A stretch of 64,000 nucleotides of DNA from positions 4,099,501-4,163,500 of the forward strand of contig NC_091971.1 in the NCBI RefSeq assembly GCF_036711975.1, in the 5' to 3' direction. The DNA comes from Onthophagus taurus (Eukaryota > Arthropoda > Insecta > Coleoptera > Scarabaeidae). The notes beneath the pieces were generated by a model. The model saw only the letters and a program-made list of their open reading frames with translations, was not told the origin of the DNA and ran no database searches. The translations under genes were made by a program, and so were the position numbers. Shown piece after piece: positions 33,601 through 35,773 of this stretch; positions within the stretch are counted from its first letter, which is position 1, and the number at the start of each line of letters is the position of its first letter.

Positions 33601-35773
33601 TCGATGTTTGTATCATATTTGTCAAAATTTATTAAACAAAAATTAAAAGATAAATAAAATTTATATTTAAATTTAGAGACAAGCGAGAAGATTATTAGCC
33701 GAGGGGCAAGTTGAAAATTACCAACAAGCCGAATTAGCCGTTAGTTTATTATCACTAAAATTTTCAACCCAAGAAGTTCTTGAAGCAGTTAAAGATTGCA
33801 CAACTTTAGACGCAGCCGTGGCGTATCTCCAACAAGAATGCGAACTATGTGCGGGGAAGTACCACATGAACAAGGTAAGCGCATGAAATTAATTCAAAAA
33901 ACTCCTTTATTAACTAAAGTGTCGTTTGCAGATCGTTTCTATGTTAAAATGCGTCCATAGATGTTGTCGTGATTGTGCCAAAAATTATTTCACCATCCAA
34001 ATCACCGATCGTAATGTGATCGATTGCACGTGTCCTTTTTGTAAAAAACCCGACGTCGACGAAAACACCGAAGATGAATTATCTGAGTATTTTGCTAATT
34101 TGGATATTTTACTCAAGGGGATCGTCGAACCGCAAGTTCATGAATTATTTCAAAGCAAGTTAAGAGATCGAACTTTGATGCAAGATCCAAATTTTAAATG
34201 GTGTGCGCAAGTAAGTAATTTAATACTGTTTGTTGGACTAAATTATTTATAATTTTATTATTTTTTAGTGCTCTTCAGGATTTATTGCAAATCCACGACA
34301 GAGAAGATTAATTTGTCCTGATTGCAGATCCGTAACTTGCGCTAGTTGCAGAAGACCCGTTAGTAAATAAAAGATAAATTGTTTTTTTTTTGTTGCACAA
34401 AAGATAGCCGCGTAACGTTATTGATTAGCGTTTAGCGACTTTAGCACACAAATAACGATTATAACTAAATTTAATTCATTTTAAGTGGGAAAAACAACAC
34501 GAAGGGATCTCGTGCAAGAAATTTTCCGAATGGAAAGAAGCTAACGATCCGGATAATCAAGCTTCCGCCGTTGCGAGACATTTGGCGGAAAACGGAATCG
34601 ATTGTCCAAAATGCAAATTTAGATATTCCCTTTCCCGAGGTGGATGTATGCATTTCACTTGTAGCCAATGCAAATTTGAGTTCTGTAGCGGTTGTGGGAA
34701 GCCTTTTACGATGGGGGCGAAATGCGGGGTTAGCGCGTATTGTGCCAAATTAGGATTACACGCTCATCATCCCAGAAATTGTTTGTTTTATCTCCGGGAT
34801 AAGGAACCGAATCAATTGCAACAATTATTAACGGTAAATACAATCACAAAAAAAATTTTAATTAAAATAATATAATTTTTTTAAAGGAATATAATATCCC
34901 ATTTGATACTGAGGGACCAGGTGAAAATGAAGATAACGCAACAGCTTTGGCTAAATGTACAGTTCAATTACAAAAAGAAACTCCCGGTGGTTTATTAGAT
35001 ACGATTTGTAATAACGAGGTATCGCCGGGACAAGCTGGTTTATGCAGGTAAATTCATTAAATATGTGTTTACCCAAAATTTAATAAAAAATTTAGGCACC
35101 ATTACATAGAATATCTATGTATATTAATAAGAAACAAGAAAATTGATCCAATAAAAATATTAACCGCCGATGATTTAGAAACGATAGTTCGACGTGCAGC
35201 GAAAAAACTTCCTCCAAACGCCTATGGACTACCAATTAATGTTTATAGAGATCGTTTAGTTCAGGTAGAAGGAAGCAAACATCATTTAACATTTAATTAA
35301 AAATGTTTTATTAAATTTTTGTTGTTGTGTGACTTTTTTGTTTTAAATAGAAGTAACCCAAGTCTAACTAATTCCCTGTCTCTGTTGTGTTAGGCTGCAT
35401 TACATCGAGTATTTAGTTGGGCTCATTGGTAGACAGAGATTGGATCCGGTGAGCATACTCGATCTGGTCGAGGTTTGTCAAGAGTTAAGGCGACACGGTA
35501 AGGATGTTCCGGAGAGGACTCAAAATTCTACCGATCGAGAGTACCAACAATTGTGCGCAAAGGTAAAAATATGTCTCTCAATGTGCCCATACTAAAATAA
35601 AAATTTATTAAAAATAATCTTGAGGAGTCTCTCTTTATATGGAGCTTAATAATGTCATGCAGCTTTAGTTTTTGGTGTTTTAAACTTTTTTGCTTGCCTC
35701 TAAGATTTTTTTGCAGATTTATTAATTATTTCTTTTTTTTTAGATTGTCTCAGAAAAAATCCCATTAGATTAA
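18633..35773 (+). CDS. LUBEL: LUBEL, linear-ubiquitin E3 ligase (HOIP/RNF31-type RBR)
   Basis: Exons: 18633-18638 (Met-Ser, inferred), 24758-24911, 24964-25106, 25161-25304, 25505-25619, 25677-25825, 25880-26086, 26143-27040, 27249-27508, 27613-27816, 28015-28164, 28345-28473, 28527-28790, 29793-29997, 30062-33567, 33677-33874, 33932-34210, 34269-34358, 34486-34833, 34887-35047, then 35096-35264 or 35394-35562, and 35744-35773. All phases agree; about 2602 aa. Domains: B-box-like zinc finger (aa 54-101, [16 protein letters not shown]), NZF (about 515-545, [20 protein letters not shown]), UBA-like regions (about 854-1009), a 1168-codon disordered exon, RING1-IBR-RING2 (about 2235-2483) and LDD. 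The RING2 catalytic cysteine is C2421 in GIDCPKCKF...RGGCMHF, as in HOIP. The protein assembles Met1-linked ubiquitin chains, in flies acting in IMD/NF-kB and heat responses. Confidence 0.93.
19790..22500 (+). mobile_element. Decayed non-LTR retrotransposon (reverse transcriptase), interrupted by a Tc1 element
   Basis: Broken frames carry RT signatures in order: an [18 protein letters not shown] segment (about 20230-20275), [18 protein letters not shown] (about 20440-20490) and, beyond the Tc1 insertion, [15 protein letters not shown] (about 21710-21755) and [20 protein letters not shown] (about 21797-21860, with the YADD catalytic motif). Frameshifts and stops show it is dead. The order fits a Jockey-like LINE. 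It lies in the first LUBEL intron. Confidence 0.8.
20515..21702 (-). mobile_element. Tc1/mariner-like element inserted in the LINE
   Basis: The left end CAGTTCTGTTCAGAT is matched by the inverted right end (ATCTGAACAGAGCTG), and both sides are flanked by TA (20513-20514, 21703-21704). Inside, on the minus strand (20992-21285), lies a transposase N-terminal helix-turn-helix: [20 protein letters not shown] then AERVGLS. The rest of the transposase is lost. Removing it restores LINE continuity (YGIRG then [10 protein letters not shown]). Confidence 0.85.
22622..24036. mobile_element. Long-TIR DNA element in LUBEL intron 1 (copy 2)
   Basis: It starts TGTACAGGGTGGTTCAAATT and ends with the complement AATTTGAACCACCCTGTACA. 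The arms remain similar for several hundred bases (22622 to about 23110 against about 23550 to 24036), including the shared aataacgaatttattaagcg block. Total length is 1415 bp, with no intact ORF. The termini match the element at 161-1818 and the interior matches 28825-29737. Confidence 0.88.
24299..24577 (-). pseudogene. LINE reverse-transcriptase fragment
   Basis: The minus-strand reading contains [20 protein letters not shown] and [20 protein letters not shown], the RT palm segment of a LINE (FIDY.KAF). It is about 90 codons long with no flanking element structure recognised. It is of a different type from the LINE at 19790-22500 and lies just upstream of LUBEL exon 2. Confidence 0.75.
28015..28245 (+). 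CDS. LUBEL: LUBEL exon with read-through ending: predicted tail-anchored short isoform
   Basis: The first 150 nt (28015-28164) are a normal internal exon ending at TGG before gtacca. If that donor is not used, the frame stays open for 26 more codons: [10 protein letters not shown], then a strongly hydrophobic [11 protein letters not shown], then NQKKL and stop at 28245. A single hydrophobic segment with a five-residue polar end is the layout of tail-anchored proteins. AATAAA follows at 28298-28303. The resulting isoform would have about 836 aa with the B-box-like and NZF fingers but no RBR or LDD. Whether it is made cannot be told from DNA alone. Confidence 0.55.
   Translation, partial: SLPDSPSRANTPFEVDSMEYLDPRYTRKYGGKNRSHSIMDLRYRNDYNYWVPKNKSLASCVVFIALVALIVNQKKL
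28298..28303 (+). terminator. Candidate intronic poly(A) signal in LUBEL
   Basis: AATAAA lies 53 bp after the read-through stop at 28245, followed by a T-rich run and, from 28345, the next exon. Its place fits cleavage that would end the tail-anchored isoform. In AT-rich introns this hexamer also arises by chance. Confidence 0.45.
28825..29737. mobile_element. Long-TIR DNA element in LUBEL intron 13 (copy 3)
   Basis: The ends TGTACAGGGTG... and ...CATCCTGTACA enclose 913 bp. The left end has lost about 40 bp relative to 22622-24036 (the run from ggttcaaattcg is missing), while the interior words aaatagacctatct, cagtttcctgtaaatt and aataacgaattt are shared. It is non-coding and lies in the orientation-neutral middle of the intron. 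Confidence 0.85.
31945..32985 (+). repeat. LUBEL: Tetrapeptide-repeat low-complexity segment inside LUBEL
   Basis: About 340 residues (roughly aa 1640-1985) are built from a 12-nt period giving four-residue units of the form [N/K/S]-x-[A/V/T/E]-[S/T], for example [12 protein letters not shown] and KKAS. The repeat is coding, in frame and free of stops. It is rich in Asn, Ser, Thr, Ala and Lys and should be disordered. It separates the UBA-like part from the RBR. The near-identity of units points to recent slippage or unequal exchange, so its length is probably polymorphic. Confidence 0.9.
35096..35264 (+). CDS. LUBEL: LUBEL LDD exon version A
   Basis: The 169-nt exon is entered at phase 2 and left at phase 0. 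It encodes [20 protein letters not shown] followed by [18 protein letters not shown] and more, 56 residues. The position equals the human HOIP LDD segment that follows the AGLC motif (AHYKEYLVSLI...LDP). It joins to IVSEKIPLD and the stop at 35773. See version B. Confidence 0.85.
35394..35562 (+). CDS. LUBEL: LUBEL LDD exon version B (mutually exclusive with A)
   Basis: The 169-nt exon has the same length and phases as version A and aligns without gaps: [20 protein letters not shown], then [18 protein letters not shown] and more; 17 of 56 residues are identical. Only 129 nt of intron separate the two. Inclusion of both shifts the frame and stops after 12 codons; skipping both stops after eight. 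Version B keeps EYLVGLI..LDP and looks closer to the vertebrate LDD, so A may be the derived copy. Confidence 0.85.

Follow-up and report, generated by a model that had tools for sequence, protein, structure and literature searches.

The window analysed here, 64,000 nucleotides of the dung beetle Onthophagus taurus (contig NC_091971.1, positions 4,099,501 to 4,163,500), carries on its + strand the gene for LUBEL, the insect orthologue of human HOIP (RNF31), which runs from 19557 to 35773 and in which two neighbouring exons near the 3' end, here called A and B, encode alternative versions of one segment of the linear-chain-determining domain (LDD). We are confident that the pair of alternative exons in this domain of the insect linear-ubiquitin ligase is ancient and conserved. 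The first coding exon (19557..19616, + strand) was placed by a tblastn match to residues 1-20 of the O. taurus protein P0001, at 100%. The protein has an RBR followed by an LDD homologous to that of HOIP, with the residues LRD aligned at R935/D936 in a constitutive exon, and human HOIP is the best PDB match of its RBR-LDD, end to end for the form with A (E 9e-66) as for the form with B (E 1e-63). The Pfam family PF18091, the RBR C-terminal domain, is matched at 107 bits with A and 103 bits with B (cut-off 23), the match stopping 33 residues into the swapped segment. With the HOIP and PF18091 matches, the naming of gene and domain in an earlier note on this DNA holds, and on homology we regard the product as a HOIP/LUBEL-type ligase, for which synthesis of Met1 chains by either form is a prediction. 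Met1 specificity is credited to RING2 together with the LDD. Drosophila LUBEL (CG11321) belongs to the same gene family and likewise has a C-terminal RBR-LDD, and it is to our knowledge the sole linear-chain ligase described in flies.

The annotated O. taurus isoform X3 gives 17 local matches to the window, four at 100% and eight at 95% or above, the lowest (63%) being its B segment aligned over exon A and intron; the final 100 residues of X3 are identical to the B form of the window. A second LUBEL locus was not found: in the 290.8-Mb genome no other match to the RBR-LDD is better than E 0.02.

Towards the 3' end of the gene, where all features lie on the + strand, alignment to HOIP identifies a constitutive exon at 34486..34833 that encodes RING2 and the first part of the LDD, including the equivalents of R935/D936 (Arg codon from 34795), and another at 34887..35047 that encodes the middle part of the LDD and whose final two bases open a codon. 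A 48-nucleotide intron (35048..35095), whose 3' splice site is poor in pyrimidines (0.40 of 20 bases), precedes exon A (35096..35264), which encodes the last LDD helices, equivalent to HOIP 1000-1055, in the type slightly nearer to human HOIP. The 129-nucleotide intron that follows (35265..35393; pyrimidines at the 3' site 0.75) leads to exon B (35394..35562), the alternative version of the same segment, and beyond a 181-nucleotide intron (35563..35743) lies the last coding exon (35744..35773), which encodes IVSEKIPLD and a stop and is in frame with either A or B. The introns around A and B are GT-AG.

Each of the two exons is 169 nucleotides long with AG/GT borders, and their phases are equal, the upstream exon closing at 35047 on two codon bases and both A and B ending on a codon boundary. 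Aligned without gaps they are identical at 17/56 residues and 69/169 nucleotides, with the identity spread unevenly (12/22 in the first 22 residues, 5/34 in the remainder), and none of 100,000 shuffles of B reaches 17 identities (mean 3.7, maximum 13). In a six-frame search of the window, a profile of the A type detects exon B at E 7e-9 and a profile of the B type, whose 35 seeds include the O. taurus copy that is identical to the window's exon B, detects exon A at E 3e-10. A third copy is absent from the window, the next best match of either profile having E 0.11 and 9.2 bits. The pair combines similar length, equal phases, conserved splice sites, sequence homology and a position in the same structural region, the features by which mutually exclusive exons are recognised (PMC3228551).

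Reading frame by itself breaks both joint inclusion and skipping, and so points to a one-exon outcome at the protein level. When A and B are joined, a stop follows after 12 codons, 130 nucleotides ahead of the last exon junction, a position at which decay is expected, so that such a transcript would probably be lost or yield a truncated product; when both are skipped, the frame reads RLSQKKSH and stops after eight codons, in the last exon, which would leave a truncated LDD. The exon lengths, phases, identity and spacing as well as the two stops had been reported in the earlier note, and all were reproduced.

The distribution of the two types was followed in 241 LUBEL proteins taken from three protein searches (the best 120 of 564, 45 of 45 and the best 120 of 156 matches), two of which were aimed at the B type, and typed with profiles of 21 A and 35 B segments. 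The window's own exons A and B score 105 and 107 bits with the matching profile and 38 and 33 with the other, and the smallest margins are those of Daphnia (A; 18 and 25 bits) and Ischnura (B; 43 bits). One clear type is found in 209/241 listed proteins, B in 175 and A in 34; a further 30 hold A then B in one model, one holds two B pieces and one holds neither. As separate observations on individual models, P0069 (Popillia japonica) carries two successive partial B-type segments at residues 893-978, and some dipteran A-type models (P0098, P0105, P0109, P0110) read past the shared tail into other sequence, which may be an alternative last exon after A.

Among the matches listed, 182 species are represented, with both types in at least 32, only A in 26, only B in 123 and neither in one; the counts for both types are lower bounds because each 90% cluster contributes a single representative. 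Both types occur in at least 6/35 species of Coleoptera, at least 17/41 of Hymenoptera, at least 6/85 of Diptera, at least 1/3 of Orthoptera and at least 2/5 of Phasmatodea. For most of these 32 species the evidence is one model in which A and B occur together, and in at least five species A and B stand in separate proteins. Only A is present among the matches listed for three Lepidoptera and two Daphnia, and only B for four Blattodea, two Hemiptera, one Neuroptera and one Odonata. An exact swap separates two annotated isoforms each in Nicrophorus vespilloides, Augochlora pura, Cotesia glomerata and Anopheles funestus: the 80 preceding residues and the whole tail are shared, and the 56 residues between them differ (identity 21, 16, 16 and 21 of 56). 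These isoforms are, by their names, database gene models and hence annotation. In Anopheles darlingi, neither of the two isoform pairs tested shares its flanks.

Such a distribution could also mean that one exon is functional in each lineage, with the other a relic or a purposeless rare splice form, as the single type found in 149/182 species among the matches listed and the weak 3' splice site of exon A in O. taurus would allow. We consider this very unlikely: the two types are similarly conserved (3.00 bits per site for A, 3.05 for B), both exons are open in frame in the window, the swap is exact between isoforms in four species, and further isoforms are hidden behind the single representative of each 90% cluster.

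The age of the pair can be read from a tree of 66 segments, in which one branch, with support of 100/99 and present in 100% of 200 bootstrap trees, parts 29 A rows from 37 B rows. The tree is unrooted, is built from 56 columns only and is without HOIP, and the tree program flags Daphnia and Ischnura as long branches; the Daphnia branch meets the B side, and that of Ischnura, typed as B, lies inside Hymenoptera and was not used for dating. Gryllus and Trypoxylus contributed A rows from models fused to B, with their last three and two positions filled from the B side, which may be why these two group together. A recent local duplication is rejected by the A/B split. An insect-wide exon phylogeny had been proposed in the earlier note as a check on the pair; the conservation of both types across insects is a new observation. 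Among beetles, wasps and mosquitoes there are species with A and B in separate proteins; in Gryllus and two Timema, a single fused model contains the two types, the Timema A pieces being too short for the tree. Since both types are present in Gryllus and Timema as well as in Holometabola, the duplication would be older than the division between them, and, as judged from these sequences, it very likely took place before Holometabola diverged from Orthoptera and stick insects. Holometabola separated from these groups about 380 million years ago. As to which form is older, human HOIP scores 33.6 bits with the A profile against 25.0 with B (20 versus 14 consensus matches), and A is therefore probably the nearer to the ancestor.

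The architecture, the homology, the logic of the reading frame, the two old clades and the exact swaps between annotated isoforms are all observed, and on this basis A and B are in all probability an ancient mutually exclusive exon pair that gives a two-form LUBEL. A regulated choice of exon would yield LUBEL-A or LUBEL-B, and LUBEL is likely to be a regulated enzyme of two forms.

Several gene models weigh against strict exclusion. In one Agrilus model A is followed directly by B in the wrong frame, and the protein ends in exactly the predicted frameshift peptide; both types stand within one model in 30/241 listed cases; and 17 models from 14 species of Hymenoptera (P0037-P0044, P0047, P0049-P0053, P0055, P0057, P0065) keep A up to residue 42 and continue in frame with the complete B segment, all with one junction between NW and QHY. 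The last may represent a third isoform in bees, wasps and ants or a habit of the gene finder. The exons might thus not be exclusive, with a longer protein holding both segments also made, an alternative to which the hymenopteran models, with A cut at profile position 42 and B in frame, and two Anopheles models cut at position 42 at a different junction lend some weight, but which we regard as improbable. The full joining of A and B runs into the early stop, and the remaining 11 joint models end A at 49, 53, 54 or 56, as gene finders might. Within the window, none of the six GTs inside A is in the phase needed to join B, so in-frame double inclusion in O. taurus through an internal donor of A was rejected. 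The mutual exclusivity claimed in the earlier note accordingly survives at the level of the frame, which both joint inclusion and skipping break, and stays putative as strict exclusion at the RNA level, given the Agrilus model and the 30 models with both types.

How the choice might be enforced was approached from two sides. An incompatibility between U2 and U12 introns was rejected, as the donors GTAAATTC, GTAGAAGG and GTAAAAAT are without the U12 donor consensus used for comparison. Competing RNA pairing between a docking site and selectors, the mode of choice in Dscam1, is known for the insect exon clusters of Dscam, 14-3-3zeta and Mhc (PMC6071210), but is quite unlikely for LUBEL, where six intron/exon duplex tests against shuffles gave z from +1.2 to -1.6, a weak test in one genome.

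The swapped segment is equivalent to residues 1000-1055 of human HOIP, by the offset from R935 and by the own numbering of the structure entries (4LJO, 4LJQ, 6SC5), and both insect forms align with the human LDD from end to end; the solved human chains are of a single version, a little closer to A. The earlier note had presented the segment as the part of the LDD that helps to hold the acceptor ubiquitin, which is not supported as worded, for the equivalents of R935/D936 map upstream to the constitutive exon at 34795, 67 residues before the segment here and 65 in HOIP. In HOIP these two residues contact Glu16/Thr14 of the acceptor ubiquitin (PMC7125101), and they hold the acceptor according to PMC5090701 as well. 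Q974/D983, which bind the kinase STK4 (PMC12441119), also lie upstream of the swapped part, and an STK4-binding switch was rejected on that ground; S1066 lies beyond the segment. No contact residue within HOIP 1000-1055 is named in the available parts of the literature examined, in which reviews number few residues. The core common to both forms comprises H1001, Y1002, E1004, Y1005, L1006, R1032, P1038 and Y1049, with the first helix and R1032 largely retained, and the forms diverge mainly from residue 1022 onward.

Whether the switch acts on catalysis itself, through acceptor placement, processivity or linkage by way of the helical base on which the acceptor site rests, has to be weighed against this map. 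The contacts between LDD and acceptor are extensive (PMC5135002) and the zinc finger and helical base of the LDD are both said to be needed to place the acceptor (PMC5413910), the available parts of both papers giving no residue numbers, so that acceptor contacts within the segment may exist; 39/56 segment residues differ between the forms. Given, on the other side, that the named residues for the acceptor and for STK4 are encoded upstream in constitutive exons, that S1066, just past the segment, is reported to be far from both ubiquitins, and that the two forms largely preserve the first helix and R1032, a catalytic role seems rather unlikely. Because the catalytic Cys885 and R935/D936 are in constant exons, a surface for partner binding or activity tuning is what the switch would most likely change, rather than Met1 specificity. 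On the last LDD helices, it is the outer surface that the swap would alter, and with it a partner or the activity; an effect on partner binding or tuning, and not on the choice of Met1, has about even chances as judged from sequence.

Like the clusters of Dscam1, Mhc and 14-3-3zeta, the LUBEL pair consists of adjacent exons that are homologous and equal in length and phase, of which one would be used at a time; unlike them, it has two exons only and no signal of competing RNA structure (in one genome), and it lies in the domain that gives a ubiquitin ligase its specificity. In Drosophila melanogaster, LUBEL isoform I (P0225) has a B-type segment and extends 137 residues past the acceptor Asp, as does isoform E (2892 aa, D2755; PMC5090701). 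Seven isoforms are described for Drosophila LUBEL, some without the RBR, and two versions of the LDD are not mentioned in the available parts of PMC5090701 and PMC6462001. Both forms already exist as database isoforms and, as far as the listings show, the pair itself appears to be undiscussed: we found no literature on it, and the supplements of genome-wide exon catalogues may hold it. Findings on one LUBEL isoform may thus cover only half of the protein, and the pair offers a natural mutagenesis experiment that shows which LDD surfaces may vary without loss of the enzyme. More tentatively, insect LUBEL might be two enzymes, with a switch at the end of the LDD that leads to a different regulator or ubiquitin output, and bees and wasps might add a third form, one and a half segments long; this is possible, if doubtful, and were it true, work on single isoforms would have missed half of insect linear-ubiquitin biology.

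Elsewhere in the gene, the long first intron of LUBEL contains at 22622-24036 a large inverted repeat with 395-nucleotide arms, 95% complementary, and two inner pairs, and reading frames in another intron, at 28863-29570, look related to it by eye. Also in the first intron, reading frames at 20121-20508 resemble reverse transcriptase by eye and are probably a retroelement remnant. An imperfect tandem array at 31925-32976, with periods of 12, 48, 108, 132 and 240 nucleotides, codes for Asn/Thr/Ser-rich repeats in LUBEL.
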